Shown here: in pieces, positions 1-64,000 of the stretch | Numbering within the stretch: position 1 is the stretch's first letter | Layout: each line of letters opens with the position of its first letter | Assembly (NCBI GenBank): GCA_030267565.1 | Contig: BRXU01000009.1 | Span: forward strand, 890,001 to 954,000 | DNA: 64,000 bases | Source: Pleodorina starrii | Taxonomy: Eukaryota; Chlorophyta; Chlorophyceae; Chlamydomonadales; Volvocaceae | Direction: 5' to 3' | Translations under genes and position numbers: made by a program | Notes under the pieces: model-generated | What the model was told of the DNA's origin: nothing | Database searches by the model: none | What the model saw: the letters and a program-made list of their open reading frames with translations, nothing else

Positions 1-3000
1 CACCCCACATGGCACCCACCCGCCACCTGGCGTCCCGGGGCGGCACACCAACACTCGCGCCTCTTCGACCGTCGTCGCCCGGCGGACGATTGCTGATGGG
101 GGACGGCCCCGCGTCTTTTCCTCCCGTGCGCCACAGCCACTCGGGCGTTCCGGCGGCCGCGCAACGGCCGCTGCCGCCCTGCGGTTCGCCATTGAACTCA
201 CGCGGCGGCGGCGACGGCGGCGGCGGTGGCGGCGGTGGCGGTGGCGGCGGTGGCGGTGGCGGCAGCCGCTACAGCCACGGCCTGGAGCGACGCAACAGCG
301 AAAGTGAGGTTGGCGGCGGCGGCGGCGCTGGAGGCGGCGTCGGCGGTCGCCATAGCAGCAGTAATGTCGGTGGCGGCGGCGGTGGTGGCGGTGGTGGTGG
401 TGGTGGTGGCGGTGGTGGTGGTGGCGGGCTACCGTCCATCAACGGCGCGCGTGGAAAGGGTGAGTGCAGTACTACTGCTAAGCCTACATTAGAGACGTTC
501 GGCAATTCCAACGGACATCGGCAGTAGAGGCCGCTTGCGGTGCCCTTTTTTTAAGGTTTCCGCTACGGTCACCCGCATGGACGGTATCCTTGGTTCGCTT
601 TGCCGTACACGTGTTGCTTTGTCGTACACCGCCCACCATGTCCGGCCATGACTCAGCCCACACAGCCCAGAACCTGTTCATCTGTTCATTCCCAGTCAAA
701 ATGTAGTCCTTGTATGCTACCCTATTATGTTACACGGATAATTGTGCTCGGAACGAAGGGGGGTCGCAGGATGTATCGAACTTGTTAGGAAGGCGCGATA
801 CGCACCGGCATCCCCCTCTGGGTCCCTGCAAAGCGATTTACGGTCATACAAAGTTACAAACCCCTTCGTTCGTTCGGCCGCGCGGCTGCAACCACTTCCC
901 CTACAGGGCGCCTCTCACCTCCACGGCTGGCTGTCCCCATGGACGGCCGAAGCGCCGGCCGCATCAGTATTACCAACATCAATCCCAACCCCGCCGGCCA
1001 CGCCGGCGGCGGCAGCAGAGACCGTGCCTCCCCCGACCGCCTCCTTATCAGCGCCCCCAGCCGCAGCACCACCTCCGCAATCGACGCCATCCAAGGACCC
1101 TGCGGCGGCAGCAGTCTCTCGTCCAAGGCGTCTGTTCAACGCCGGATGTCGTACGACGGCTCGGGCGTGCTGTCCTCTACTGGCGGCGGCGGCGGTGGAG
1201 GTGTCGGCGGCGGCAGTGGTTGCGGATTCCCACTCGTGGAGCCGCCGATGTTGCTGATGCTGCACCGGGAGTTCATGGGCGGCGGACCGCGCAGCCGATT
1301 CCGCGTGTCGTGCGATGGTGCGTCGCTGACTGATGGGCAACCTGTGATGAAAATGGTTGGCTTATTATTAATTCTTATTAATATTATGCGCGCTTGCCCG
1401 GCCATTCGCCTTAAACGGCGCTATAGCACACAGAAAAAAACACCTGCACATACAGCTCTTTGCGCCATGTTCGTTCTCCCGCCCCCACTGTAACCAAACC
1501 CGCCTTCCGCTGACCAATCCACTTTCACACAATTCCATCCAATCCTATTTGTATGCAATTCAATCCAACCCCTCGCTTCGTTCGATTCGTTTCTCCACCC
1601 TCAATCCACCCCCTTGCGCCACTTTGTCCTGCTTGTTTACGCTTCTGTACGCCTCGCAGGCGGCGGCGGCGGCGGCAAGGCCGAGTGGCGCAACCACGGC
1701 ATCTCCTGCCCCGCCTCCCCCACCAAGACATCCTCGCCGGCCAGCAACCGCCAGGCCGGCAGCATATTGGGCCACACCACGGCCCCCAACTCGCCCAGGG
1801 GAGGTCAGCGCGTGGCTGGACCCAGCTTCGGAGGCGGCGTGTCCGCTCCGCCGGTGGGTCGCCGCTTGACGGAACCATTAAACGCCTTTGTATCTCCGTG
1901 AGCCCCGGCCACCGCCGCAATTACATATATGGACCCGTAACGTTGAACTGTGAAGTTGCGCTTTCAATTTGCCGGTACCGTATATAAATAACTTCTCATT
2001 CATCAAACAAATATCCCTTCCCCTGCAGGCCCGCCTCCCCGCCACCGCCGCCACCACCGCCGCTCTCAAGCCTTCTCGCGTTGCCGTACCAAAGCTGTTG
2101 ATCCCAACCAGACCCCTTCCATCGCCGCCGACGACGCCGCCGCCAGCGGCATCGCTCAGCCCCCGCCCGCCGCCCTCCCCCGCCGCCACCCCTCGACTGC
2201 CACCAGCGGACGCGCCCATGGATCCCGTCAATTTGGCCCTGCTGGCCATACGCCTGGCGGTTCCTTTCTGCCGCAGCGACTCGCCGGCGGCGGCAGTGCC
2301 GCCGCTTCTGATGCCGCTGCTGACGCCGCTGCTGGCGGCGGCGCCGCCGCCGCCGCCGCTGCCGCAGCCGGTTCCGGAGGAGACCTCCGCGCGGATTGAA
2401 GGCCTGCGGGCGCGGTGCCAGGCGAAGCTTGAGGAGTTGCAGCGTTGTAGCCAGCTCATCTCCATGTTTTTAAATCGGTGCAACGCTGGTTGGGCGGAGG
2501 CGCAAGCGTGGACGGCGCCGTCGATGGTGACGCAGCCGCAGCTGACCGCGTTCACGCGCTCTGATGCCGGCATCCACTTCCGTGAGGAGTTGCTGCGCAT
2601 GCTGTGCAGCGGCGCTGTCGCCGTACACCTTCGCGCCGGCGACGACTTCCTCGAGCCCGGCATGTCGTACGGCGGCCTGGAGCGCAGGGGCGGCGGCATG
2701 GCTGGCTTCACGACCGACGCCGGCGGCGGCGGAGGCCCGTTGTCAGTGCTTCGATGGGGGTCCAAGTGGCCAGGCGCCCCCGCCGCACCGATCGCCGCCG
2801 GCGGCCCTGGCGGCGGCAGCGGGCTTGCCGTACCGGGAGGGCTGTACCGCAGTACGGCACCGGATGTGTGGACGCAGGACCCCTGGCGCATGCTGGAGAC
2901 GTACAGGTGCTTGCCGTTCATAACCTTTGCTTGTAAAACGTTAAACGTAGCTGCCGTACAAAGCGGCTGTGCGGCCCAGGTAGGTATGCGCGGGTCGTGC

Positions 3001-6000
3001 ACTCGCGACGCCCCATTCACTCCTCGTTCTGCCCTCGATACCCGCTGTGCGCAAAAGTCCGCCAGCTCCCATGCACCCCGAAGATCCCATTTTGTAACAT
3101 GGATCCCTCTCTCTGCATCCTCTTCGCACCTTCCCCTCCACAAACCTGAAGTCCCCAATCACCCCATCGCCCCCTCATCCTCCCAATTTGGCCATCACAG
3201 GCCCGGCCTGCTGGTCCCGGGTTCGATGCGAATCGAGGGCGTGCCACTGGGCTGTCGATATGTGGCCGCCTTGGTGTTGGCTCTGGAGGCTCTGGCGGGT
3301 CGAGAGGCCGTTGAGAAGCTGCCGCTGGTACTGGTGGTCAGCGAGGATCAGCAGGACGAGGTGGTCCGCCAGCTGTGGGCATACAGGTTCTTCGGGTAAG
3401 TGGGTTGGCGGGCGGTTAAGAGTCGATGACGCTAGCTAGCGGCCGAGATGGCGGTTGTCGGTTTGTACGGTTGTGGGCTGTTGGAGTTGCGGTAACTCAT
3501 CCTCATCATCAACCGCCGCAGCCGCAGCCCTTCGCCAGCCTTACTCACTACACGTCCTCGCTCATCAATTGTGCCTGCTTGCTTTCGCAACCTTGCTTTC
3601 ATACAACGCTTGCTGCAGTTTGTCTGTTCGTCGGTTCGCAGCCTTGACGTACCCCTCCCCGACTTGCTCCCCGTTCCATTTTGGGCGGGTGTGGGGTCCT
3701 GGGGTGTGTGTGCTTGATTGCAGCTTCCCTTCCCCGCTGCTTCCCGCGGTCCCTGTCCCTTGCCTTCCACCCCCCTTTCCCCTGCTCCCCTGCCTGCCCC
3801 TCTGCCCCTCTACCCGCCCTCACCCCTTGGCGCAGCATCCCCCGCGAAAACGTGGTGTTTCTGGTGCAGCCCTCCCACCCGGGTTACTGCTACCACTCCT
3901 CCAAACGCACATGGCTACCAGGTGATGCCTCCCACAGCCTTCCGCTGGGCAGTGGCTACGGGCTGATGCAGCTGGCGTGGCGGGAGGAAGCGCTGGCGGT
4001 CAGCGAGGAGGGCTGTTTGGAGCCGCTTCGCACGTCGGCGCTCAGCTGGATGGAGGCGCGCGGCGTAACGTGCGTGCGGGCTGCGGGAGGGCTGCGTGCG
4101 GGCTGGAGGCAGCGGGGTCTTGGACGCGTGTGTCGCGTGGTGGTGGCGGTAGCCACCGTAATAGGGGTTGCTAGCTTGCTACGGTTGGCTTCAGCACCCT
4201 TCAAGGGTCGTTTTTCGATGGTTAATGCGGTGGATGGTGGGGAAGGACGGCCTGGTACGAGTGTCCCACAAGTCAACTGTTGGGGCTTGTGAGAGAGTGT
4301 GCGTGTGTGTGTTTTGTGCCGTAATGCATGCGGCAAGAGAAAGATGGGGAGCGGGGGCAATGACGTCGCACAGTTTACTTGTAGGTCCGGTTTGAGGTCT
4401 GTGTCGCGACTGAGGATCTGGGGATCGGTGGCTGTTAGCGGCTCGCATCTACATGCCCAATGCAATCCTTCCGACCTGCGCTGCTGCGGACGGGTGTCCA
4501 CGTGTCTGGTGGTCGCAGGTGGTTGGTCAGCAGGCGCGCCCGGGATGTCAGCTTGCTGGCCAGTAACGGCGTTCTGGATCTCAACACCCTGGCGTACGGA
4601 CTGTACTACCGCACGGACCGGTAAGTTGGTTACCAGTTACCAATCGATTGGGCCGGTTGCGTGGGGCCGTTGGATTGGGGTGCTGGTCAGGTTGGCGGGA
4701 TTGAGGCGCCTACCTCACCTCCTCACTCGCCGCCTCTAGCCCCTGAATAGGCCCTCATCACCTCCTCACTCGCCGCCTCTAAGCCCTAAATAGGCCCTGC
4801 TTTTATTAGGATGCGAGTGTTACATAGGCGGCCTGATTTCACATCGGTCCTTTCTATTAGAGGTCCAGTTTCTTACTGTGGGAACAACGTCTGTGTGTCT
4901 TGTCCCCCCGCTCCCCAACCAAATGTCGCAGGTCCCCCGAGACCAACATCGTCATGGAGGCCGCTTCCACCAGCAGTCTGTTGCTATCTCGAGTGCTGGA
5001 CAGGTGAGCGATGGTAACGTATGGCAAAGGCACTAGTTGACATTTCCGGGTATCTCCCAGACGTTACACTCCCCCCCTTTGGAGGGACCGTCCCGGGACC
5101 GGTTTTAAGCCCCTCACCCACCGCCAACCATCCGCAGCAACCGTCTACAGACGACATTGCGTCAGGTCAGGACCACCACGCCTGCCTCAAGCTTTAGATT
5201 TAGAGCGTGGACCTTTGCAGACATCTGTCAGGATCAAACCCACGACCACAGCTTTCACTGTGATTCCCCGCCTGGAGCGGGTTTCTAGGGTCCGAGTCTC
5301 GATACCATTTGTAACGTATGGCAAGGCACTAGTTGACATTTCCGGGTATCTCCCAGATCTTACAGCGATGAGGGGCAGTGGGGCACCACCTTGCACGTGA
5401 GCGGCGCCGGTCTGGAGCGCGGTATGGGGCGCGGTATGAAGCGCGGTATGGAGCGCGCAAAGGGGGGCTGGCACGCAGGCCGCCAGCGGGCAGCAGGCGC
5501 GCGCCAGCCGCCAAACAAACGGTCCTCCTTGACCTCTCCCTCGCTCCCAACCAATCGCCCCAACGCGCACCGCCCCTGCCTATCCCCAATCAGCGTCATC
5601 ATGAGCCGTCGCCTGGACGAAAAAGCGGCGGCGGCAGCCGCCGCCATCAACGCCGCATACGGCACCAGCAGCAGCAGCGCCAACACCTCTTCTGCTGTCG
5701 CCACCTCGGGCTTCATCCGGCCCGGCACCGTCGTCATCAGCCCGGATTCCACGCCGCCCGCGAGCCCCACCACCTCCAGCAAGAACCTCCTCCAATCCTC
5801 AGCCAACAATAAAAGCCCTTGGTCTGCTGTCGCCAGTGGCGATCCCTTAGGCGGCCGCAAGCCGAAACAGCAGCAGCAGCCGCAGCGGCCCAGCCACCAG
5901 ATCGTGGAGCTGAGCCCCACGGACCTCGCAACGCCCGCCATGCGGGCCGTGTTGGCGGACTACCAGGAGGTCGGGCGGGTGATGGCGGGACTGGGTCGCT

Positions 6001-9000
6001 ACATGATGCACCTGCCCAGCATCACACGTACGTACGTGGGTATTGCGATTGGGCTAGTGCGTGCCGCGAGGGAGTGCCGCGAGGGAGTGCCGCGAGGGAG
6101 TGCCGCGAGGGAGTGCCGCGAGCGAGTGCCGCGAGCGAGTGCCGCGAGCGAGTGCCGCGAGCGAGTGCCGCGAGGGAGTGCCGCGAGCGAGTGCCGCGAG
6201 CAAGTGCCACGAGCGAGTGCCGCGAGCGAGTGCCGCGAGCAAATGCCGCGAGGGAGTGCCGCGAGCCAGTGGCGCGAGCGAGTGCCGCGAGCGAGTGCCG
6301 CGAGCGAGTGCCGCGAGCGAGTGCCGCGAGCGAGTGCCGCGAGCGAGTGCCGCGAGCGAGTGCCGCGAGCGAGTGCCGCGAGCGAGTCCTTGAATGAATC
6401 GCAAGTCCTATCTTATTACCTCCGCTGCGATCACCGCCGTCTTGTGGGGAATAAAATGCTCTACTCACCTCGCTCGTTTGCACCGTAACGACTAATAACT
6501 CGCAGCGCCGCCCCCCGCTCTTTTTCTCTCTTCCTCTCATTCTCTCATTCTCTTCTCTTTGACACACACAAATTACACACACATTCCCAAAATGCAAAAT
6601 CCAACGCCTACAGCCATGCTGGCCGGCCGTCTGTCGGTGCTGCGCCCCAAGCTGGGCCTGGTGGACGACCTGCTGCACGTGCGCATGGAGCTCTCCGATC
6701 TCACGTCGGCGCACAATGCATCGTCGCTGCTGCTGCAGGTACGGATACTCGTACGGCAGTTGCCGTAGTGTACGACACAAAATGGATGGACGGCCGCCGT
6801 CAATCGCGGCAAAGAAACCGTTATTCGAAAGAATGACAAAGGCCCCTCCGCCGACCGCTATCTATCGAAGACGCCGTAAAAAAGGCGTCTCGTACTGATG
6901 TATGCGGAATGCCGGCGGTGCACGCACGTACCGGTAGTCTCCCGCCGCCGCTATCGTCGTCTGTCCCGCTGTTCCCTGATCACGCACGGCAACCTTGTGG
7001 CCCTGCAAACTCGCCCGTACTACTTTAGGAACTAGGGCTGGACACGCGACAACTAGATCCATCAATACCCTCCCTAAAAGTTGGCACCGCAAACCTCCCT
7101 CCGGGTGTCACCGTCTCCCCTGATGATGAGCGGCCCGCCGGTGTCCTCCCTGCCGCCTGCCGCCGGCCCCCCCTGGATCAGGCGCGATCCGATACCCCCC
7201 AACTGGTGGTCCAGGACGATGTGGAGACACTCCTGCCGCTGCTGCAGGTACGGTGTCGTACTGTACGACACTGTGTCGTATGGCACGGAAAACTCTATGG
7301 GTGGTCATGCAGGGCTGCGCCCTCACTGCACGCACACGTAGCTAGCAGCTTGCAGACGCAATCAAGACAGCATGGTCGCGTTTGCTTTCAATGTAAAATT
7401 TTACCCTTCATTCCGTACAAATGTACTTCATACATATGTACTGCAGGCGCAGGACAGCAACCCCCTCTTCCGGCAGCTGCTGGTTTCATATAAGGTCGTC
7501 GAGGAGAACCGGAAGCGGTACTCGCCGTCGGCGGCGTCGGACGGCAGCCGACGGGTCGGCGGCGGCGGCGGCAGCAGCGGCGCAGCTGGCAGCAGCGGCA
7601 GCGGCGGCAGCGGTGAGGGCGGCGACGCCAGTAACCACCGGCAGGGTCTTCCCTCCCCGACGCAGCCGCCGCCGAACCCCAAGGTTCAACGCATCCTGGT
7701 GTTTTTGGCGGCCAATACGGTGAGTGCGTGGGCGCTGGGCAGGTGCATCGCAATGCGGTGGCTGCACCTGGACGGCGGGTTTCGAGTGTTTTCACGCCAT
7801 GTTGTCCACCACGCACCTCGCTCTCCGTTAGCAAACAGCAACATGGACAAACCACGCAATAACTGGGTCCACCCGTCACCTCATCAGACCTCATCACCAA
7901 CTCTCCGTCGGTGACACCTGCATGCCCATTACGTAACGCACGCCCAACACCCCATAAACACCGACACCACGGCGTCTGCTGCATCGGCGCGGCGGCACCG
8001 GCACCGGCACCGGCGTGTGACCGCAGATTTCCACAGCCGCCGTCGCGATGGCGGCGACTCTGGCTCAGCCGGGCCGCGATACGGTGACGCTGGCAACGGT
8101 GGTTTCGGAGGTGCCCGGGGTACGGCAACACGGTGAGGAGTTGCTTGCCAAGTACTCCACCGAGTTCAAAAAGCTGGGCGGCGCACATTACACCTGCGAG
8201 GTGGTGGTGAGTCATGTTTCTCGATATAGTCCGGAAGTCGAACGGCGCGACTTGCTCGCTCGGGTACGACGCGGCGACCGACCCGTGGATCGTTCGGCCG
8301 GCAGTCCAACAGCCCACGCATGAATTGCGTTTGCGTGCCCATGCATCAGGGTCCCCCCCCCCGACATCTGCCGCTCATTCGTCAGTGGCCTGCCCGGGCG
8401 GGGCTTTTTTGGCAGTCAAATAATCCAATCTCAACGCTTTGAGCCACGCACGCACGCAGTCCTAATTCGTCGTACAGGAAACGTACAAGAAAACCGTGCT
8501 GCACTCCTGTACTCCTGCGTGCTCCTGCACTCACAGGAGCGCGGTAACTGCGGCCTCATTGACTGCATGGAGGAATTCTCAAGCCGCCATGGCGCCACGC
8601 TCGTGGTCATGGGATCCGACTCTCTCACCTCCAAGGCCAACATGTCCGTCCCCACCGCCTCCGCAACCTCCCCCGCCTCCCTCCACATTATCGGCTCCGT
8701 CACACTCGCGCTCCTGCGCCGCCTACCCATGCCGCTTCTGCTCGTGACGCGCGCTTCTGCAACGGCGGTTACCGCTGCCGCGACTGCGGGCTCAGTGGAG
8801 CAAGTCGGCGGTATCGGCGGCGGCGGCCGCCGGCGCACGCTTCGCTGTCTGGCGGTGATCGAGGGACACGCGGCTGGGATGATTGATTACCTCGCTTCGC
8901 GGCTGTGCGACGGCAGGGCGGGAGACCAGCTGTACTTGTCGTACATCCGTACAAGTACCTTGATGACGCGGCAGCAGTTGGACAACATCAGGGCGCTTAT

Positions 9001-9837
9001 CAGCCGCTTCACGCACCAGGCCGCCGGTAAGTCGCGACACAGCAACCAACTACCAATGACGAATTTAGCCCCGCCCTGAGCCCCGTTATGCTTTGACTAT
9101 TGAGTTCAAGGAACATCAATAGAGGGAGGGAGGGGATCCATGTCATTTTTGGCAAACACACGACTGCACGAGGGCTGGTGGGCGGGCTTTGCGACGACAG
9201 CAATCATCATCGCGGCCGCCGAACACAGTTCATGAAACTGTCAAAATTCCTCTAAAAGTATTTCACAATAAAAGTTACTACCATGTCGCAACCCGCAGCC
9301 AACGGCCCGCCAGCCGGGTCGCGCATCGCTGCTGCGGGAAACGTCAGAATGAACGTCAGAGTTCGCAGCATGATACCATTCTGCCGAAATGATTTAAATT
9401 TTTTCACGCAGTCAGGTCAGCGGCTCGTAAGGCCAGCGAATCCATTGTCAGGCCATCAAGCCGCGGCTAGCGAGGCGCGACGCCGCTTGCCCGTGATGTA
9501 GCTCTATGCCGCGACTTATCGTCAATCTTCATCACAACACTGAGCCCCATCGCCAGCGCGAAACATCTACGTCGTTACATAACACGCTTGCCGCGCCCGC
9601 CTCTCACTACTGCTGCCCAATCCAGCCCTCAACATGCGTCCCGCCAAGACGCTCATTCTGGACGGCCCCGCGGACCGCGCACTCGCTACCGCGGTGGCGG
9701 ATCACGGCATAGATCTGTTGGCGGTGCCGGCGGTGCCGCTGGGGCACCAGGTGCCGCCGGCGGTGCTCGCGACTATGCGCGCCGCCAGTACGGCAGTGCT
9801 GTGGTACAGGGACGCGCAGCAGTTGCCTGAACTGTGA
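1..9837 (+). CDS. Tandem universal-stress-protein-like (USP) protein with possible nucleotidyltransferase-like middle; 5' end may lie outside the window
   Basis: Phase-consistent exons: <1-459, 907-1317, 1660-1897, about 2029-2906, 3201-3395, 3836 to about 4064 or 4130, 4519-4620, 4932-5003, 5366-6027, 6614-6738, 7029-7247, 7447-7719, 8027-8206, 8537-9026 and 9626-9837 (stop). The first three exons are Gly/Ser/Pro-rich and probably disordered. The middle (3201-5003) has LPLVLVVSEDQQDEV followed by FFGIPRENVVFLVQPSHPGY, which recalls UDP-sugar pyrophosphorylase-type nucleotidyltransferases; this is weak. The C-terminal third holds two USP-like modules. The first starts at QRILVFLAANT (about 7687) and continues to GATLVVMGSDSL and LLRRLPMPLLLVT (to about 8755). 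The second starts at LRCLAVIEGH (about 8840) and ends with HGIDLLAVPAVPLG and AASTAVLWYRD. USP domains are Rossmann-like alpha/beta folds, often ATP/AMP-binding. The intron at 5004-5365 is almost entirely a mobile element. The reading frame at 2029-2906 is unresolved, and an extra intron within 5366-6027 is possible. USP assignment is moderately sure; overall function is unknown. Confidence 0.7.
200..432 (+). repeat. GGC/GGT triplet microsatellite encoding polyglycine
   Basis: Two runs (about 200-264 and 366-428) of GGC and GGT triplets encode long polyglycine tracts in the first exon of the USP-like gene. A mix of synonymous GGC and GGT interrupts the array. Further Gly runs occur at 1180-1217 and 1660-1677. 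Confidence 0.85.
5014..5363 (+). mobile_element. Short non-autonomous element, copy A, with about 54-bp terminal direct repeats
   Basis: The element is 350 bp. Its ends are near-identical direct repeats at 5014-5067 (54 bp) and 5311-5363 (53 bp). Each repeat starts GTAACGT; the left one ends ACGTTAC and the right one ATCTTAC, so each repeat is also bounded by short inverted ends. It is flanked by a perfect 7-bp target-site duplication, AGCGATG, at 5007-5013 and 5364-5370. The interior of about 240 bp has no coding capacity. A second copy in opposite orientation lies at 27985-28333. The layout could be a miniature terminal-repeat retrotransposon (TRIM-like) or a MITE with subterminal repeats. 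It fills almost all of an intron of the USP-like gene. Confidence 0.85.
6061..6387 (+). repeat. 13-bp minisatellite (GTGCCGCGAGCGA), about 25 copies, intronic
   Basis: Tandem copies of a 13-bp unit with GCGA/GGGA variants occupy the intron at 6028-6613 of the USP-like gene. That intron begins GTACGT after 6027 and ends CTACAG before 6614, and the flanking exons match in phase 1. The array is stop-free in several frames, which produces spurious open reading frames on both strands. Confidence 0.9.
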
Positions 9838-10455
9838 TGGCGTCGTCGTACATCGTACAAGTGGGCTACATACACACCGTGGCTAAATTTACGCGGAGCG
9901 AGCATCGTGCGTGGATGGCTGGATTGATATGACGTGGCGAAAGGGGTCGGTTTATTTAGGATAGGGGGTGCAGCGAACGAATGTGGGCGGCATACATTTG
10001 CAATCTGCGTGTGGATAGGGTAGAAGGCGCGCTTCGTTTGGAGGGAGGCCGGAGCGCCGCCCGGCGGGTCCGCTTGTGCTGTCCAACGGCTGGCGGCGTT
10101 GGTTGGGGGCGGCCATAGTGGTTGGATATTGGTTTCAACGAGCGAGCGGGCGAGCGAGCGAGAGGAATGGGTCATTTGTTGGTTGAGAATAGCGCTGCCG
10201 CTTAACCGCTCCCATCCCGTGCCATGCCCTGCCCGCGTGTGCGTGCGTGCGTGGCATCTGAAAGTCTGACTCATCAGGGAGGCGACCTTCTATCTATCCA
10301 GGACGCGACGACGAGGGGAATGCGTGCGGCGATCGCGGATCGCCTCTTCTCTGCTGCTGGCCATACGATCCCTCCATTTCCCTTCGTTTTCAATGTTGTG
10401 AGGCGAATCTGCGAGTAGAAATAGGTTCGCTCGTCGACGCGGGCTTCTGGGTGCG

Positions 10456-10473
10456 TGTAAGTGGTAGGTGTAA
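10456..10473 (+). terminator. Candidate poly(A) signals TGTAA (10456-10460 and 10469-10473)
   Basis: Two TGTAA pentamers, the usual volvocine polyadenylation signal, lie about 620-635 nt after the stop codon of the USP-like gene. I did not see one nearer to that stop. Confidence 0.4.
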
Positions 10474-11143
10474 CTTACACACGCACCATGCATGAAGCAC
10501 GAGTACGTAAACACCGGGGCGTTAATTCCACTTACACGGCACAGCCCCCCTGCCTCGGCTGGCATCATGCAACGCTTACTTTGTCCCTTGCACTGAACTT
10601 ACATACGTGCATATGCACGCGGCTGCCTCATAAGCAACGTTGCAGTACAGGCGGGCGCCCGCCGCAAATAAACCTGCATGGCGTAACGCAGCGCCGTGAA
10701 TTACGCACCAGGTGGCCCACGCCACCTACCTATGTCGTCTGTAGCCATACCTACTGGCCTCCCCGGGCCCCTTCCGTTTGCGCTCAGCGAGGAGTCGCGC
10801 TCAGGAGTCTCCAGACCCGCCAGCCGTGCGCCCCGTATTCGGCCTGCTGTAGGCACTCCAATAGGCAAACTAGCTAGCTAAATTAAATTGGACGGATTCG
10901 AACTCAACACTAGCATTCAAACCTGGTGAGGGGGCCTGCTTACTTCCATCGACCAACAGATAAATGAATATCTAGCTACCTTCTGTACAGGCAAAGGGGG
11001 ATTCGATCGTGTTCGGGCCGCCACATACTCAACTCAACATCACAATTAGTGTCCACCTTTCAGCGAAGTCCCAAGAGGGAGAGAGATGAATAATGATTAG
11101 GCAACCCAGTATCTACCAAGCACAATACTATCTATACCATGCC

Positions 11144-11148
11144 TTACA
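11144..11148 (-). terminator. Candidate poly(A) signal TGTAA for the caspase-like/ARM gene
   Basis: TTACA on the plus strand reads TGTAA on the minus strand, about 70 nt past the stop codon of the armadillo-repeat exon. Spacing fits a short 3' UTR. Confidence 0.5.
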
Positions 11149-11218
11149 GCTGCACGTACGGTCTTAATCAGACAAACACGCATACCGACTTCACAGAATA
11201 CGCGCAGACAGTACTATG

Positions 11219-14200
11219 CTACACGTTGAGGGCTGCCAGCAGCCTCGCGGCCTGCCGCTTCACTCCCACGTCAGGGCTCCTGCAGAGCCTCACCAGCAGA
11301 GGGACGGCGCCGGCCCCCGAGATGTCGACCCTGTTGGCCCGGCCAACCGCCGCCAAGGCCGCAAGGGCTTCCACCGCATTTCGCTGTGAAACTGCTGTGC
11401 CCGGACGGCCCAGGAGCTTCGTCAGGGGCGGGATGCCACCGGCCTGAGCAATCTCGAGCTTATTATTGTCATCATTCTTAGCCAGGCGCGCCAGCGTCGC
11501 CGTCGCTACCTGCTGCACCAACGCGTCTGGGCTGCTGAGGAGCCTGACGAGGAGCGGGATGCCGGCAGCCCGGGCAATGCTGGACTGATTCAGCTGCCTC
11601 TCAGCCAGGCTGTCCAACGCCTCTGCGGCCACGCGCTGCACGGTATGATCTGATGAATTGCCGAGAAGATTTACAAGAGGTGGAATGCCGCCAGCCTCCT
11701 CAATGGCGACCTTGTTGGCGTGAGGCGCGGCGAGGCGCGCCAGCGCCGCAGCGGCGTTATGCTGCACGGCGACATCAGAGGCGCTGCTAAGAAGCTCCAC
11801 CAGGCGTGGGATCCCGCCGGCCTGAACAATCTCGGCCCCGTAGGCCTCATCCGCGGCAAGACTGCGGAGCGCCGCAGCTGCCTTCTGCTGCACGACGACG
11901 TCTGGGCTGCCTAGGGCCGCCACAAGGCGTGGGATGCCGCCGGCCTGCGCAATGCTGAGCTGGCCGGCTGCGCTCACCGTTAAAGCCCCGAGCGTCGCTG
12001 CTGCGTTTCGCAGCACGACGATGTCGGAGCTGTCCAAGAGACCCACCAGCTTCGGGATGCCGCCGGCCTTTGCAATGGCGACCTTGTTGGCCCCGTTCAC
12101 AGCCAGCATCCGCAGCGCCGCCGCCGCATCTTGCTGCACAGCGGCGTCCGGACTGCCCAGCAGGTCCACCAGCAGCGGGATGCTCCCCGCCTGAGCACTC
12201 CTGAGAATGACCTCCGTGGCAGCACTCTCAGCAGCTATATCCGCCAGTAATACACCTTCTGCCGTCCCTTGCTGTTCCCCAACATCCGTGCTGCTGTCCA
12301 CATAACCGCCCGCGGCCGCCACTGCTGTTGGGATGCCATCATCATCATCAGCAGGATCAGCAGCTACATCAGCCGGCGGCGGGGTGATGATGGCGGCGGT
12401 AGTGTTGCCGGCGGCGGCCTGCACCTCGAGGTTCACTTGCGGCGCCGCTGCTGCTGCCTTCTGCTGCTGTAACCCTACCGGTACTCTTTGCGAGCCGCCC
12501 AGCAGTTTCAACAGACGTGGCACAGCACCAGCCTTGGCAATGGCCGCCCGGTTCGCCGGTTTCGCAGCCAGATTGTACAGCGCCGCTGCTGCGCCGTGCT
12601 GCACAGCGGTATGCGGGCTGCCCAGAAGATCCACCAGCTTTGAGATGCCCCCCGCCTTCGTAATCGCAATCTCGTTCTCGCCGACAAGAGAGAGGATACC
12701 CAGTGCGGCTGCCGCATTATGCTGCACCGCGGCATCCGAGCTGTCCAGGAGCCTGAGCAGCTGCGGGACGGCCCCAGCCTTTGCGATGGCGACCTTGTTG
12801 GCTGCATGGACGCCCAGGTTCAGCAACGCTGCTGCGGCGTTCCGCTGCACAGCGGCGCCCTTGCTCCTGCTTAGGAGCTTGACCAGACGCGGCACACCTC
12901 CAACCTCAGAAATTGCGGCCACATTGGCCTCGCTCACTGCTAGGTTCCGCAGTGCCCCTGCTGCGTTCTGCTGCACAACGGCATCCGCGCTGGCCAGAAG
13001 CTTGACCAGGCGCGGGATGCCGCCTGCCTGGGCGATGCTGACGTCGTGGCCCCCGGTCTGGGCCAGGTCCCGCAGGGCTCCTGCGGCCTTCTGCTGCACC
13101 ACAGCATCCGGGCTTGCCAGGAGCTTGACCAGGGGCGGGATGCCGCCGGCCTGGACAATCGCGACCGCACCCTCATCGCTTGTGGCAAGGCTCCAAAGCG
13201 CCGCGGCCGCGTTCCGCTGCAAAACGGTGTCTGAGCTGCCCAGGAGCCTCAGCAAGGGTGGGATGCCGTCGGCCTCTGCAATGGTGTCTATGTTTGCAGC
13301 GTTCTCGGCCAAGCCCCTGAGCGCTAAAGCCGCCATTCTGCGCGTGGTTGTATCAGAGCCGCCCAAGAGCCCGGTGAGGTAGGAGATGTCTTCGACCCGG
13401 GCAGTTGCAGCTGAGATGTCGTCGAACTGCCGTCGCTTCATCATAGCCTGCGTGCATGAGCTAGCACAGGTCATCACCATATATGTACACATACATGTAG
13501 TATGAACATGCGAGCTGGCTTGCTATCTTCATTCTGCGACGGGAATATCTGTATGTATGTGAGCCCAGCTATTCGCATTCGATATCGTACGGGAGGACGA
13601 GAACCGACGCGACCCTTCCTGCATGTTCGCTTACCAGCCACGTCTCGACTATGGAGAGGATGTCCTGCTGCGCCTTGATAGCTGCGGAGCCATCATCGGG
13701 CGCCGTCAAAGCCTCGTCCAGATACCTCCACTCGTCCTGTGTGTGTCCACGATCACACATACATGTGGTCGTTTAAGTTGCTTGTGGAGAAAGTTATTAT
13801 TAACGGTCACGTACTATACTGAGAGAGTTAGTTGCTTGGGGCCTCAGGAAATCAAGGCCATCACGTACGCGCGCACGGACGCGCGCACCACGCACGTGCC
13901 TGTCATATGCCGGTCATGGCCTGATCAGGACATTGATAGCAGCCGACGGCGGAACCCGTCGGTGAGTGGTCCATATCGACTGCTGTGGACACAGATAAAT
14001 TCCAGCCCTGCTCTAGCGGCAGTAAACATCTATCGAACACGCACATCGTCCGCCGTGTGCGTGCACATACATACCAGCGGTTTCAGCAACGCCTTCTCGA
14101 TGATCGTCCCCGCCGCCGTCGGCTCTCTACAGTGGCGCTGCTGTCCGCCGGCACCATCAGCGGCGGCTGCCTCCTGCGGCTGCGGCTGCTGCTGTCCAAA

Positions 14201-15721
14201 TGCTCTGGATATTGCCTCCAAGACGCCCATCTTCTCCTCGAACAGGTACTGTACGCAAGCACATGCACACGTAGCGTCTTTTAGCGCGTTTGTGTAATAC
14301 ACTCGTAATAATAATCGGAAGCCGTGCGTCGTTGTGTTGTGAAGCTAGTACGAACACACAGTACGTACGAGCAAAAGGCTCACCCACAACCTACACGTAC
14401 ATGTCACTGTAATTGCGAGCGCGTGCCTGTATGTTGAACGCTCGAAGGCACTTCGATCGAGGCACCTTCATCTATATATTTATCTAAGTCGCTCGATCGG
14501 CAAGCAGCGAGGCATACAAGTGTACATCCATCCCGTGCAAACATCCGCCTCACTCACCTACCTACCTTCATAAGGTCGCTCCCCTGCTCACTCATCGACT
14601 GGCATGGTCGGCATTGACTGGTTGCCCAGCACACGTAGGCACTGCCCGACCGCGCTGCCCCAACCCCACTTTTCGCCAACAGCTGTTGCTGCCAGCAGTG
14701 GTAGCCATCAAGCGCCTCACAGGCATCAGAAGAGGGGCTGCTGCTGCTGCTCTTGGTCGAGTCTGACGGTGCGCTGACGGTGCGCATAAGAGGTCCCCAC
14801 CCGAAATCGCACGTTAGCCTCGGGGACGAGCCCGCTGCTCCTGCTGCAGTGCTTGTTACCGGCCAGGTGGTGGGCGCGCCGTCGGGGCCGGGACCCGGGG
14901 CCAGCAACACAGCCAGGGAGGCCACCGCGTGACGCCGCATGGGCTCCAGAACTTCCTGTTCGAAAGAGATTCCGTAGGCGCTCCTGGCTCGGGCGTCATT
15001 GCCCAGGAGGTAGTGTGTGCCGCCGCCCTCCGCCGTCGTCATGCCGTGTCCCGAGTAGAAGAAGAACGCCCAGCACCTGCCGCTGCACTCCTCCAGGAGG
15101 CCCTGCGTGTGTACATACGAATTGTATGCATGGCCATGCATCCAGCCGTGGCGAAAGGGTGATGAATGGGGCGTTTGATAGTTGATGAAGTATGATACCG
15201 CGTTCGCTAAAAAAGTAATAAAGCACGGCTCGGACCGCGGACCGGGTTAGTTCTAGCTCCGATCCGTTACTTAAACGTAAATGAAGGGCAAATAAAGAAG
15301 CCGAGGGTGATAACAGATTGCGACCAGCAGCCCTGCTGAGTGGCGAAACACTGAGTGACGAAACGCTGAGCGGCTGGCGGAACGCTGATGGCTGGGCGGC
15401 GTCGTGGTCCGCGGACACCTATCCAGGTAGGACCCCGCCACGCACGCAAGTCGATCGCCGCCGTGCTAACTATTTGTTACCAACCTGGAAAAGGTTAATG
15501 GCATCCAGAAGGCTGTTTCGGTCCGCCTTTGCGGCCGCGAGGCTGTCGTCAAAAGTAGCATTGCTGTCCTGCGGCTGGTCGTGACGCAGTATCGGTGACG
15601 TTGCAACGCCAGATTTCGCGAGGCTGTCAAAGACGTGAATTGACTCAACAGCACCATATCTGCAAGGCGGCAAATGCTGGTAAGCGCCAACACCAAGAAC
15701 AAGGGCTACGCACTCTAGCAT
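11219..15721 (-). CDS. Caspase-like (peptidase C14) domain fused to armadillo repeats, 1092 aa
   Basis: Five exons: 15485-15721, 14566-15102, 14075-14248, 13635-13736 and 11219-13447. Every junction is GT-AG and phase 0. Residues 1-79 open with VALVLGVGAYQHLP, the first strand of a caspase fold. Exon 2 carries CWAFFFYSGHG (His at about residue 98), the p20 catalytic-His motif of C14 peptidases, and VCWATSQ, matching the usual A-Y-A-T-A-P-G strand. The LDAC(R) strand carrying the catalytic Cys is not seen; the equivalent strand reads SLAVLLA (141-147). A DAC triplet occurs later, at about 205-207, in Ser-rich sequence. Residues of about 351-1092 are about 15 ARM repeats of about 41 residues (AGGIPxLVxLL...AAxALxxLA) plus a final partial repeat. 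One repeat is split by an insert of about 100 residues (12200-12490). ARM superhelices bind proteins. The fusion rests on the strong donor CTG|GTAAGC at 13635/13634 and acceptor CACGCAG before 13447. If unspliced, the reading ends at 13569 and the ARM part would start at 13444 or 13492. Confidence 0.75.
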
Positions 15722-16891
15722 TGTATTGCACTAGGTTCGGATAATAAAGCCGCCTTCGGTGTGAAACGATCCATAGAGAAAAGGGTCTTTTTCCATCGCA
15801 TCGCCCTCGTTATGACGGTATACGGTATCGTACCGGCCTTCAGTGTATCCTAAACTTACAAGCTACGGAGAATATACAGTACTGTAGAATTGTCTCTGGG
15901 CTTCAAATTGATAATACGCAACTTTGCAGATTCCTGAGGCTAGGTTTTCCGTATCTTGATTTCGATGACTGACTCGAAGAAAAACTCAGGCGCTTTAAAT
16001 ATACATCGGATAAAGCAATTGGAAAAATCTATGCAAGTTGCCCAAACCATTGGACATTGCCGATTGTTTTCGTTCAAGCAGAAACAACCAGGGGAGACAA
16101 AAATGTGAGTGCCTGTATTTCGACAACTTTTGCAATATTAAAAAGTAGAATTTTGTGATTTTATCTAGATGTACAATTAGATTTATCACAAACCAAAAGC
16201 CCAGTCGGTCTCCGAGCTTTCGGGCCGGGCAGGTCGATTGAGGCGTCGTGATAAGTAGTGAATAAGTAGTAGTACTTCATGCAAACTAAACATCCCAGGT
16301 TTAGGTCAAATAAAGTGCAATAAGTAAAGCGCAAGACGGAAAGCGCCCTAAAGCGCAAACGCCGGGGCCAGAGTGCGTTAACCCACCTGGCTTGACCCAC
16401 CGTGATGGAAAGCGATCTGATTAAGTGTGATGCTTCATTGCATTTGCAAGCTTCTCACTGAACGAGTCTTCGTTAATTACGACAGGCAAGAAGTCACCAG
16501 ATATCCTGTAGCGACGCATAGAAAGTGTATCGGTAACTTGATAGGGATACGCACCAAGAATTGCAGATGCATATTACGAAAGTTTATTATACGTTGTGAT
16601 GGTTGTTATCGTGCCTTTTTAGGACATGTACGTGCGTATTGTACGAGCATTGTGCTGAATTGTCCGTGCATTGTACGCATGACATGTTAGGGGAGACCTC
16701 AATTTGAGGGAAATAGATTCCTTAACGGTTACGGTTATCTCTTCCAGACAGATCTTCTGTGGAGATGCTTTAGAGCCGGAGACTATTGCAAACACCAATC
16801 AACCCGCACCGCCGCAGCGCATAACCGCCATGGTCGCTGAGAGCAGCGCTTAGTCATTAGCTTAAACAACTTCACACAACGTATATGAGAG
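15722..16891. other. AT-rich divergent intergenic region
   Basis: This 1.17-kb spacer separates the minus-strand caspase-like/ARM gene from the plus-strand membrane-protein gene and should hold both promoters. Much of 15750-16700 is clearly AT-richer than its surroundings. I found no confident TATA box, gene or repeat. Confidence 0.4.
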
Positions 16892-33334: not shown

Positions 33335-35454
33335 TTAAGAATCCACCACCGCCAAGTCCCGCTGCACGGCCTCGCGCTGTAGCCACGTGCGCACCTCCTC
33401 CCGGTCCGGCCCGGTCCTCCTGGCCGCCGCCGCCAGCGCCGCCTCCCAGCATCCCACCGGGCAGCCCTCCTGGAGCAGCCAGGCCAGCACGGGCACGGGG
33501 CAGTCGCCGTCCGCGACGCAGACCCCAAACACCTCCCCTGGAGCCCCCCAGGGGCAGCCCAGCTCGCGCAGGCAGCTCAGCGTGGCCAGGTCGCCGTTCA
33601 CGGCTGCCACGTAGTACGGATCGCCGTTGTCCTGCAGGCGTGTACACAACAAGATGGCCCGGGGGAATTCGGTGGCGACGAGCGATCGATTCAGATGCTT
33701 GCCAGGACGGGTGCATTCGTAGCTTGCAGGGCAGAGCATATGGTAGCATCTGGTAGCCGCCGGCAGTGCGTGGTAAAAGGGTAAACGCAAAGCCTGCATT
33801 TCTATGGCCCTACCTCCCCCGCCCAAAACGGAATTCGGCATTTCCATGACCCTTCTGCAAACGGAAGACGGCATTTCAAGTATAGCTTCCCGCAAGTGTA
33901 TCCACCTCCACCTCCACGTACCTCCATGCTGCAGCCCCGGGCCACCAGCAGACGCAGCATCTCCCCACATCCCCCCTCCACCGCCTGCCGAAACAGCGGC
34001 CCCTCGTCGGTCAAGTCCCAGCGACCTCGATGCTCCAGCAGCCAGCCCATCAGCGCCGCACTGCCAGACCGCGCCGCGCCCAGGACTGTATGCCCCCAGA
34101 TGCACGTGCGACCGTTCAAAGCATTGCAATCGTCCTTGGCCATCACCCACGCCACAACCGCCAAATGGCCGCCCTCCGCCGCGCCCTGCATCACGTGCCA
34201 CGGCACGGGGCAGCGCCGCGCGTCCAGCGCCTGCAGGAAGGCCAGGTGGCCCGCCGCCGCCGCCGAGGCGGCGGCGGCGGCGGGCCGCAGGCCCTGCGCC
34301 AGAAGGTACTCGAGCAGCGGCAGATTGCCGGCAGCACCGGCGGCGGCGACAACGGCGGTGGAGAGCGGGTAGCCGCGCGCGTGTAGCCAGGCGACGCGCT
34401 CCAAGGCGTCTGGACGAAGGGCGGCCTTGGCGCAGGCGGCGGCGGCGCCGGAGGCGCCCGGGCGGCCGGCGGCAGCGCTGCAGCCGAGCACGGTTTCCAG
34501 CCACTCGACCTTCTCCCGCCAATCGGCGGTGGGGCTGCTGACGGCTGCCAGGAGGATGGAGGCCTTGTCCACGGCGAGGAGCTGCTGCGGCAGCGGGATA
34601 GGTTCCCGCTGCAGCGCCGCCGCTGCCGGCAGCTGCGGGTTCCGTCCCTGCGGCGGCGGCGCTGCACCGTCCTGGCCGGGCGATGGCAGCTCGGGTCCCA
34701 GCGAATCGGCGTGCAGGCGTTGCAGCGTTGCCAGGTCGCAGCCCTCTGCCGCGGCCGCCAGCAGGCCCGAAACACGCACGGCGTCACGCGGAAGCGGTAG
34801 CGACGAGCCGCAAGTGTGCCGCCGCCGCAGCGCCTCCATCAGGCCCACGTGACCGCCGCGCGCGGCGGCGTACACCGCCGCCCTGTCGCACGGGCAGCCG
34901 CTGGCGAGTAGCCACTCGCACGTAGCGACCTGCCCAGCTCCCGCCGCCGCAGCGAGGGATCCCGCCCAGGGACAGCCCCGCTCCCGGAGCCACTCGCATA
35001 TCTCCAGACAGCCTGCGGCCGCGGCGGCTTCAAGCACGGTTGAAATAAGCTTGTTGCTGCTGCCCTTTACTGGTCGGGGTTTGGCCTGAAGGACTATTCC
35101 AGCGCTTGCAGCCACGATCTTCAGGTTGGGGAGGCAGCCGCTCGTCGCGGTGAGGAAGAGCAAATCACGCCGCTGGCTCAGCGAAAAAGAGGACATGCTG
35201 TTGCGGCAGGCCCAGCGCCAGGCGAAGGCGTGCGCGGGCACGGGCTGTGAGAGGCGCACGATGACGAAGACGCGAAACGTTGCCAACAGCGCCTTGTTTA
35301 CAAGGCGCACGGTGCATGCGATCTCGTTTGGGGGTAGGAAACTGGCGATGGTCTCGATGATCCCGGGCAGGGAAATGCGTGAGGCGTCGATAGTACAAGA
35401 GGCATGGATCTGTTCTTCGACGTCTTTGACCTGATGGTAAACTGACGAGCTCAT
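33335..35454 (-). CDS. F-box-like / ankyrin-like repeat protein, 609 aa
   Basis: Two exons, 33922-35454 and 33335-33631, are joined by a 290-nt GT-AG intron (donor GAG|GTACGT, acceptor CCTGCAG), phase 0. Residues of about 25-75 (SLPGIIETIASFLPPNEIAC..RLVNK) look like an F-box-like helix set, followed by RLSQPVPAHAFAWRWAC. This opening is typical of a large volvocine family of ankyrin-type proteins. The rest is degenerate ankyrin-like repeats with the recurring signature CEWLRERGCPW / AWLLQEGCPVG and Ala-rich helices, which continue through the second exon. F-box proteins usually act as substrate adaptors of SCF ubiquitin ligases, with repeats binding the target; that role is inferred. The 290-nt intron has an open frame on this strand, which can mislead a single-exon model (stop at 33802). 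Confidence 0.8.
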
Positions 35455-51722: not shown

Positions 51723-54700
51723 CACACACACGCACACGCACACACGCAAACGTACACACGCACACGTACACACGCACACGCACACACGTACACACGCACA
51801 CGTACACACGCACACGTACACACGCGCACGTACACACGCACACGGACACACGCACACGGACACACGCACACGGACACACGCACACGGACACACGCACACA
51901 CGCACACACGCACACGTACACACGCACACGTACACACGCACACGTACACACGTACACGGACACACGCACACGGACACACGCACACGCACACACACACACG
52001 GACACACGCACACGGACACACGCACACACGCACACACGCACACGTACACACGCACACGTACACACGTACACACGCACACGTACACACGCACACGTACACA
52101 CGCGCACGTACACACGCGCACGTACACACGCACACGGACACACGCACACGCACACACGTACACACGCACACGTACACACGCACACGTACACACGCGCACG
52201 TACACACGCACACGGACACACGCACACGGACACACGCACACGGACACACGCACACGGACACACGCACACGGACACACGCACACGGACACACGCACACGGA
52301 CACACGCACACGGACACACGCACACGTACACACGCACACGGACACACGCACACGGACACACGCACACGGACACATGCACACGGACACACGCACACGGACA
52401 CACGCACACGGACACACGCACACGGACACACGCACACGGACACACGCTCACGGACACACGCACACGGACACACGCACACGGACACACGCACACGGACACA
52501 CGCACACGGACACACGCACACGGACACACGCACACGGACACACGCACACGGACACACGCACACGGACACACGCACACGGACACACGCACACGGACTCACG
52601 CACACGCACACACGCACACGGACACACGCACACGGACACACGCTCACGGACACACGCACACGGACACACGCACACGGACACACGCACACGGACACACGCA
52701 CACGGACACACGCACACGGACACACGCTCACGGACACACGCACACGCACATGCACACACGTACACACGCACACGTACACACGCACACGTACACACGCGCA
52801 CGTACACACGCACACGGACACACGCACACGGACACACGCACACGGACACACGCACACGGACACACGCACACGGACACACGCACACGGACACACGCACACG
52901 GACACACGTACACGGACACACGCACACGGACACACGCACACGGACACACGCACACGGACACACGCACACGGACACACGCACACGGACACACGCACACGGA
53001 CACACGCACACGGACACACGCACACGGACACACGCACACGGACACACGCACACGGACACACGCACACGGACACACGCACACGGACACACGCACACGGACA
53101 CACGCACACGGACTCACGCACACGCACACACGCACACGCACACACGCACACGCACACATGCACACGTACACACGCACACGGACACACGCACACGGACACA
53201 CGCACACGGACACACGCACACGGACACACGCACACGGACACACGCACACGGACACACGCACACGGACACACGCACACGGACACACGCACACGGACACACG
53301 CACACGGACACACGCTCACGGACACACGCACACGGACACACGCACACGGACACACGCACACGGACACACGCACACGGACACACGCACACGGACACACGCA
53401 CACGGACACACGCTCACGGACACACGCACACGGACACACGCACACGGACACACGCACACGGACACACGCACACGGACACACGCACACGGACACACGCACA
53501 CGGACACACGCACACGGACACACGCACACGGACACACGCACACGGACACACGCACACGGACACACGCACACGGACACACGCACACGGACACACGCACACG
53601 GACACACGCACACGGACACACGCACACGGACACACGCACACGGACACACGCACACGGACACACGCACACGGACACACGCACACGGACACACGCACACGGA
53701 CACACGCACACGGACACACGCACACGGACACACGCACACGGACACACGCACACGGACACACGCACACGGACACACGCACACGGACACACGCACACGGACA
53801 CACGCACACGGACACACGCACACGGACACACGCACACGGACACACGCACACGGACACACGCTCACGGACACACGCTCACGGACACACGCTCACGGACACA
53901 CGCACACGGACACACGCACACGGACACACGCACACGGACACACGCACACGGACACACGCACACGGACACACGCACACGGACACACGCACACGGACACACG
54001 CACACGGACACACGCACACGGACACACGCACACGGACACACGCACACGGACACACGCTCACGGACACACGCTCACGGACACACGCTCACGGACACACGCT
54101 CACGGACACACGCACACGGACACACGCACACGGACACACGCACACGCACACACGCACACGGACACACGCACACGTACACACGTACACACGCACACGGACA
54201 CACGCACACGGACACACGCACACGGACACACGCACACGGACACACGCACACGGACACACGCACACGGACACACGCACACGCACACACACACACGGACACA
54301 CGCACACGGACACACGCACACACGCACACACGCACACGTACACACGCACACGTACACACGTACACACGCACACGTACACACGCACACGTACACACGCGCA
54401 CGTACACACGCGCACGTACACACGCACACGGACACACGCACACGGACACACGCACACGGACACACGCACACGGACACACGCACACGGACACACGCACACG
54501 GACACACGCACACGGACACACGCACACGGACACACGCACACGGACACACGCACACGGACACACGCACACGGACACACGCACACGGACACACGCACACGGA
54601 CACACGCACACGGACACACGCACACGGACACACGCACACGGACACACGCACACGGACACACGCACACGGACACACGCACACGGACACACGCACACGGACA

Positions 54701-63700: not shown

Positions 63701-64000
63701 CACACGGACACACGCACACGGACACACGCACACGGACACACGCACACGGACACACGCACACGGACACACGCACACGGACACACGCACACGGTCACACGCA
63801 CATGGACACACGCACATGGACACACGCACACGGACACACGCACACAGGACACACGCACACGGACACACGCACACGGACACAGCACACGGGCACACGCACA
63901 CGGACACACGCACACGGACACACGCACACGGGCACACGCACACGGACACACGCACACGGACACACGCACACGGGCACACGCACACGGACACACGCACATG
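51723..64000 (+). repeat. 14-bp CA-rich satellite (CACACGCACACGGA), more than 12 kb, continues past the window
   Basis: The array is almost pure tandem copies of a 14-bp unit, roughly 870 in the window. Variants include GTACAC units (mostly before 55.6 kb), TCACGG, ACATGG, GGGCAC and ACAGGAC units (mostly after 60.6 kb). The unit has no T on this strand, hence no A on the other, so all six frames are stop-free. The giant Thr/His/Arg/Asp and Val/Cys/Arg frames are therefore by-products, not genes. No telomere-type TTTAGGG repeat is seen at its end. A centromeric, subtelomeric or simple heterochromatic satellite are all possible. Confidence 0.97.
58965..59160 (+). repeat. Degenerate patch within the 14-bp satellite
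   Basis: About 195 bp are scrambled by single-base insertions and deletions (CACCCGG, GGCCACAACGGCC, CACACCGG). The surrounding kilobases are nearly perfect. It may be an old junction between arrays or a low-quality consensus stretch. Confidence 0.7.

Follow-up and report, generated by a model that had tools for sequence, protein, structure and literature searches.

Among the closest described systems, orthocaspases are prokaryotic C14 homologues that lack the p10 domain, and they alone were said to be able to carry a variety of additional domains (PMC5756287), while pseudo-orthocaspases were stated to be absent from Chlorophyta and Streptophyta (PMC6426788). Caspase-like domains also occur in bacterial conflict systems (PMC7159879), and in fungal NLRs the effectors, among them HET, a domain tied to fungal incompatibility, are combined with repeats that are internally conserved (PMC4986451). 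Here we describe a gene from the multicellular volvocine alga Pleodorina starrii that is predicted to join a C14 caspase-like domain to a long array of armadillo (ARM) repeats. It lies in a stretch of 64,000 nucleotides (hereafter the window) on contig C9 of the source genome (136 Mb, 95 contigs).

The gene occupies the minus strand from 15721 to 11219 and, as an earlier note on this DNA had proposed, can be modelled as five exons that are all in phase 0, with lengths divisible by three, GT..AG borders and a join that encodes 1092 amino acids with no internal stop (Table 1). The C14 domain is encoded by exons 1–3, a linker by exon 4 and about 15–16 ARM repeats by exon 5. The intron that links the two halves carries in the DNA exactly the donor and acceptor that had been read from it. 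Intron 1 begins with a weak donor (GTTGGT), but splicing at this position is available to the paralogs too.

Table 1 Features of the C14-ARM gene in the window, with the HET-ARM loci found elsewhere in the genome
Feature	Position	Strand	Description
Exon 1	15485..15721	-	Start codon and first part of C14 p20, MLECVALVLGVGAY...LLDAINLFQ
Exon 2	14566..15102	-	Remaining p20 (FFFYSGHG), low-complexity linker, start of p10 (AYVCWATSQ)
SGHG catalytic-histidine motif	15043..15054	-	Retained
Catalytic-cysteine motif site	14893..14904	-	L-A-P-G in the window versus D-A-C-R in L026 and L027; Cys absent
Exon 3	14075..14248	-	End of p10, YLFEEKMGVLEAISRAF...ALLKPL; profile match to p10 of C14 proteins
Exon 4	13635..13736	-	Linker, DEWRYLDE...VETWL
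Linking intron	13448..13634	-	Phase 0, CTG/GTAAGC ... CACGCAG; stops in all three frames
Exon 5	11219..13447	-	ARM array, 742 aa; stop codon 11219-11221
ARM block 1	12446..13387	-	Eight repeats, the eighth incomplete and doubtful
Insert between ARM blocks	12188..12445	-	About 86 residues, larger part low-confidence
ARM block 2	11228..12187	-	Eight repeats, the last incomplete
HET-ARM loci L034-L039	C20:1912801-2046000 and C30:199501-256800, in parts		Six loci in which a long ARM array lies downstream of HET

Matches to the C14 part encoded by exon 1 were found at seven places in the genome: in the window, on C11, on C42 and at four places on C12. The C11 copy (L031, C11:312501-322500) is 100.000% identical to window positions 6159-16158 over 10,000 bases, including the whole gene, and we therefore count six distinct loci; the identity reflects either an assembly duplicate or a very recent large duplication. 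Five of the six (the window, L026 on C42, and L027, L028 and L029 on C12) are followed on the same strand by an ARM array.

The claim of a genuine C14-ARM fusion, also made in the earlier note, is supported by several lines of evidence. In all four ARM-bearing paralogs, a phase-0 GT..AG border homologous to that of the window is available within the same exon layout, including the short linker exon. This exon belongs to neither domain and has a homologue in each of the four (DEWKYLDE...VETWL in L028), which also have in common the position of the start codon and the end of exon 1 (the start of L030, the remaining paralog, is one codon later); exon 3 has a homologue in all five paralogs. In the ARM exon of L027, a scan that began at the stop codon before it and covered ~287 of its codons met no in-frame ATG, which makes it unlikely that the array begins a gene there. 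A homology search with the window copy gave no match, and L027 was used as the query instead, against 5.8 billion proteins with a length filter of 0.55–1.75 times the query that would miss split models. The search recovered a single annotated 1114-aa protein from Parachlorella kessleri (N2152v2_010491, here P0144) that carries both PF00656 and PF00514, matches 99% of L027 residues 1-600 with 27% identity and is the only protein with PF00656 among the 120 of 265 matches listed. The presence of both domains in one gene is thus supported for the window, and sequence comparison likewise supports recurrence of the architecture in the P. starrii paralogs and in P. kessleri.

Exons 1–4 also look constrained as protein. 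The ratio of nonsynonymous to synonymous substitution rates (dN/dS) between the window and L028 is 0.19, 0.28, 0.23 and 0.26 for exons 1–4, with dS near saturation, and lies between 0.11 and 0.35 for exons 1–2 compared with L027 and L028. For exon 4, nine pairs gave a value, ranging from 0.21 to 1.02, with seven at or below 0.70.

An alternative is that two genes lie side by side, with the C14 gene finishing at exon 3 or 4 and the ARM gene beginning on its own within the linking intron. The ARM frame does remain open for 25 codons upstream of exon 5, with in-frame ATGs, L030 indicates that C14 exons can exist without ARM repeats, and an array at 405 kb on C12 resembles exon 5 with no C14 exons upstream of it within the 10 kb examined. 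We nevertheless regard two genes as very unlikely, given that the exon 4 homologue can be joined at the same place and in the same phase in every ARM-bearing paralog, that no ATG was found in the scanned part of the L027 ARM exon and that P. kessleri has both domains in one annotated protein. The linking intron of the window also lacks TGTAA, the volvocine poly(A) signal, but intron 4 of L026 contains one.

We then compared the N-terminal domain with known caspase-like proteins. On its own, the window domain falls below the curated Pfam cut-off for C14 (E 0.013; 15.6 bits against 21.4), so its identity rests on its relatives. Three of the four paralogs scanned exceed the cut-off (L027, E 2.5e-10; L026, 4.1e-9; L030, 1.9e-12), with L028 just under it at 20.6 bits. 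A profile of the family aligns across both p20 and p10 with a profile of 13 C14 proteins (hhalign E 2.7e-25) and also matches the C14 part of P0144 (E 3.5e-10), and among solved structures MALT1 chains were its sole matches at E <= 1 (best 2.1e-4, over the stretch from His to Cys). All 26 proteins matched by the C14 region of L027 carry PF00656 (two with an organism name, both bacterial), and the PADLOC 'caspase' model matches L027 (1.5e-8) and P0144 (3.1e-5). The family profile and the paralogs thus place a C14 fold with p20 and p10 in this gene, in keeping with the caspase-like fold and FFFYSGHG motif that the earlier note had recognized; the VCWATSQ motif listed with them lies in p10 and is not the active-site cysteine motif.

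The GHG of the catalytic-histidine motif is invariant in all six aligned rows (AGHG in L028). At the cysteine motif, L026 and L027 read DACRS, L028 AACRN and L030 DMCRT, so the catalytic cysteine is present in four of the five other paralogs; L029 has a tyrosine (DAYSS) and the window reads LAPGPG. An active C14 protease carries this cysteine after the strand that follows the histidine, and with the residue gone the window copy is a predicted pseudo-caspase, which settles the earlier 'protease or pseudoprotease' in favor of the latter for this copy. Its p10 region also departs from those of its sisters in the alignment. Metacaspases have the motif D-[SA]-C-H-S-G, which differs from the DACRS, AACRN or DMCRT of the cysteine-bearing paralogs, and no metacaspase structure was matched at E <= 1. 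No death or Ig domain of the paracaspase type was found in exons 1–4 or among the 25 of 28 families listed for exon 5, and the p10 region aligned here and the eukaryotic genome set the family apart from orthocaspases, which are prokaryotic and lack p10.

A C14 tree of 19 rows (six from P. starrii, P0144 and 12 from databases, with no metacaspases included) groups the six P. starrii rows together (100/97), joined by P0144 and apart from the 12 database rows (97/99); P0144 sits on a very long branch, and only one of the 12 rows called bacterial has an organism name. Within the family, L029 is sister to the cysteine-bearing L030 (96/85) and the window is placed elsewhere (forks of 98/98 and 90/87), so that, barring regain, the cysteine is predicted to have been lost at least twice.

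Several further observations concern the family members and their surroundings. L030 was considered as a sixth fusion and rejected, with no convincing ARM match within 10 kb; on its reverse complement (~2412-3142) lies a C14 gene without ARM repeats, followed by a long frame of PAPPPG-type repeats. The reverse complement of L029 encodes two near-duplicate p10-like exons (~1861-2082 and ~4209-4418; AAYVSWVTGPSYQTATG... and AAYVCWVTGPPYQTATG...) within one C14-ARM gene; a long tract of proline, glutamine and serine precedes them. At C12:405-415 kb (L028/L040), an exon-5-like ARM start fragment is accompanied by a 558-aa ARM frame, with no C14 exons upstream within the 10 kb examined, and this is possibly a broken or ARM-only relative. 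As with the window and its C11 copy, C9:678869 and C11:94770 match as a pair. A link to the sex-determining region was rejected, with the C12 paralog cluster at 0.38–0.47 Mb lying more than 1 Mb from three RWP-RK matches on the same contig at 1.595–1.640 Mb. Across the genome, the Pfam C14 model matched three exons only, all from the C14-ARM family, in a scan that included no separate search aimed at ordinary metacaspases.

Exon 5 encodes tandem three-helix repeats of ~42 aa, as in armadillo repeat proteins. The Pfam Arm model matches it at E 6.8e-121 in 15 stretches, in agreement with the roughly 15 repeats counted earlier, and with a model derived from repeats of the family itself the count is 16, eight on either side of an insert of ~86 residues; the eighth is doubtful (11.1 bits and low predicted local distance difference test (pLDDT) score). 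An AlphaFold2 model of exon 5 consists of helical repeats with a mean pLDDT of 85.9 and 524 of 742 residues at 90 or above. Residues 317-394 are mostly below 50, and the larger part of the insert is probably disordered. Repeats within an array are similar to one another, with a mean identity of 0.51 in the window, 0.59 in L027 (maximum 0.95) and 0.77 in P0027, a protein with an N-terminal HET domain; the L027 array consists in part of 9.5 copies of a 123-bp unit (84% match). C14-ARM arrays span 0.45–0.59, compared with 0.26–0.36 in five ARM proteins scored from animals, fungi and plants, and such high internal similarity is a sign of recent duplication. Variability of the concave face was tried as proof of a recognition repertoire, at presumed ligand-facing positions taken from designed ARM proteins. 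These positions varied more than the others in all eight arrays, but also did so at p < 0.05 in 10 of the 13 comparison ARM proteins scored (16 were chosen and three had too few repeats), and because such variability is generic among ARM proteins we do not use it as evidence.

Similar arrays occur elsewhere in the genome behind a different N-terminal domain. Other long ARM arrays on C20 and C30 have no C14 exons within the 10 kb examined around each, but do have a HET domain, which in a two-exon join from L038 matches Pfam above the cut-off (E 2.2e-7; model positions 3-146 of 146). The genome contains ten HET (PF06985) loci, of which the six on C20 (four) and C30 (two), the only ones examined for this association, are each followed by ARM arrays on the same strand; the remaining four are on C38 (two), C39 and C19. 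The window gene is not of this type, as its exons 1–4 match C14 weakly and gave no match to HET. Five annotated P. starrii proteins with HET and ARM domains (P0027, P0028, P0036, P0051 and P0054) were found among the 120 of 265 matches listed, one of them from the assembly of another strain. The best match of L027 in the protein search was one of these, P0027, which covers 47% of the query region at 56% identity. The P. starrii genome thus places similar ARM arrays behind two different N-terminal domains, each linked in other organisms to cell death or conflict. Other matches pair ARM arrays with PF00644, the PARP catalytic domain (P0031, P0049 and P0135), or with kinase or U-box domains. RNA-seq was used in the P. 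starrii annotation (PMC10256686).

At slightly better than an even chance, we read the gene as encoding one polypeptide that runs from an N-terminal C14 domain through a linker to an ARM superhelix of two blocks and belongs to a small C14-ARM family with a role in recognition or death and of which the window copy is a pseudo-caspase. The ARM array would bind a protein or peptide ligand. In the cysteine-bearing sisters (L026, L027 and perhaps L028), binding would cluster or expose the caspase-like domain, which could then cleave substrates in a cell-death or defense response. The window copy, unable to cleave by the usual mechanism, would most likely act as a pseudo-caspase that pairs with or holds active sisters, or as an adaptor that presents ligand. 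A dead caspase as effector has precedent, in that vWA-MoxR bacterial conflict systems have caspase domains as effectors and ~70% of those in this position lack catalytic activity (PMC7159879). The HET-ARM family, in parallel, suggests that the two families may be effector-plus-repeat recognition proteins of the NLR type that do without a nucleotide-binding domain, and hints at an undescribed class of algal defense or self-recognition proteins. A broader and more tentative proposal, to which we give distinctly less than even weight, is that volvocine algae possess NOD-less proteins for intracellular recognition, with death effectors (caspase-like, HET) that are interchangeable and sit on fast-duplicating ARM arrays and with dead caspases as adaptors or decoys, as an algal counterpart of the fungal and plant NLR repertoires.

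Other explanations of the gene were weighed against this proposal. With its catalytic cysteine lost, a divergent p10 region and a long branch in the C14 tree (0.83, though L029 and L030 are long too, at 0.52 and 0.96), the window copy might be a decaying pseudogene whose frame is still open by chance. We consider this unlikely, as all 1092 codons are open, the splice borders are intact, the ARM array has a high-confidence predicted fold and dN/dS is low in exons 1–2, a ratio that averages both lineages and so excludes recent decay only in part. That the domain is still a protease with another residue as nucleophile seems most improbable: it does contain other cysteines, such as that in VCWATS, and an intact histidine motif, but in C14 the cysteine comes after the strand LAVL, and in the window that residue is substituted or lost, and VCWATS sits in p10 of the alignment. 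The array could instead be an ordinary ARM scaffold, for example in a Vac8-like or axonemal role, with C14 as a vestigial or structural add-on and no function in recognition or death. ARM arrays elsewhere bear many unrelated domains, and among the 50 fold matches listed for the P. kessleri model the best are an engineered protein, axonemal assembly chains, beta-catenin, designed ARM proteins and karyopherin; these matches are of the helical-repeat type as far as named, and the C14 part of that AlphaFold2 model has low confidence and was not used for that domain. Such a scaffold is somewhat unlikely in our view, as ARM arrays are paired repeatedly with death-type domains (C14, HET) in one genome, both Cys and His are kept in L026 and L027, and repeat identity exceeds that of the five ARM proteins above.

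Several results nonetheless count against the proposed reading. Eight other comparison arrays, algal and protist ones among them, have repeat identities of 0.34–0.62, and concave-face variability does not set the arrays studied here apart from ARM proteins in general. The central NACHT or NB-ARC domain that defines an NLR or STAND receptor is absent from the families listed at E <= 10 (25 of 28 for exon 5). Several exon 3/4 pairs have a dN/dS of 0.5–1.0 and several exon-3 pairs 0.5–0.8, again with dS near saturation. The paralog gene models were drawn by hand from homology; the exon-2 acceptor of L026 is uncertain, and exon 2 of L029 is broken up, with the p10 part outside the model. A TGTAA occurs 71 nt past the stop of the window gene but three of four paralogs lack one within 400 nt, making it an inconsistent and weak signal. 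Finally, neither the window fusion nor the L027 fusion was returned from the length-filtered protein set; the set does include further proteins of P. starrii, and public annotation may therefore split or omit C14-ARM genes.

We found no description of caspase-like-ARM or HET-ARM proteins in green algae among the papers listed by searches of the open-licence PMC literature, some of them confined to the top 8–20 papers; a Botryococcus paper and a lichen paper that came up proved unrelated, and the word 'caspase' is absent from the main text of the P. starrii genome paper (PMC10256686). Comparison with this literature suggests that C14-ARM joins a death-type effector to superstructure-forming repeats in a combination of repeat type, lineage and lack of NOD not met there. 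If real, the architecture conflicts with the claim that only prokaryotic orthocaspases carry varied extra domains (PMC5756287) and with the stated absence of pseudo-orthocaspases from Chlorophyta (PMC6426788), the cysteine-lacking P. starrii forms being p10-bearing and so strictly pseudo-caspases. Volvocine algae are a model for the origin of multicellularity, and these loci would provide a concrete gene set for asking whether NLR-like immunity, self-recognition or programmed cell death exists in them.

Elsewhere in the window, a 12-kb satellite with a 14-bp unit (ACACACGCACACGG, ~878 copies, 97% match) extends from 51726 to 63998 and reaches the window end, and a 13-bp unit (GTGCCGCGAGCGA) is repeated 25 times at 6061-6387 (94% match). 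A 550-aa frame on the minus strand at 33805-35454 contains ankyrin repeats (Pfam E 2.1e-11).

Of the known systems, the MALT1 paracaspase resembles the family in being the only solved-structure match to its profile at E <= 1, but it has an active cysteine, death and Ig domains and no ARM repeats. Separase, too, combines a caspase-like domain with a helical superhelix; its protease domain is C-terminal and its role unrelated. Bacterial orthocaspases and pseudo-orthocaspases share a C14 p20 with a DACR-type motif, C-terminal modules and dead variants (PMC6426788, PMC7159879, PMC5756287), but their modules are TPR, Sel1, WD40 or FGE, whereas the P. starrii family is eukaryotic, has introns, retains p10 and carries ARM repeats. 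Fungal NLRs and HET proteins likewise place an N-terminal effector before superstructure-forming repeats that duplicate internally (PMC4986451), and the P. starrii proteins differ from them in having ARM repeats with no NACHT or NB-ARC match and in being algal. Closest in architecture is P0144 of P. kessleri, which has C14 with p10 followed by an ARM array in one annotated protein, although it is diverged, with DISR for DACR, a serine at the cysteine position and a longer, less regular array. The HET-ARM proteins of P. starrii itself carry similar ARM arrays in the same species, with HET where C14 stands.

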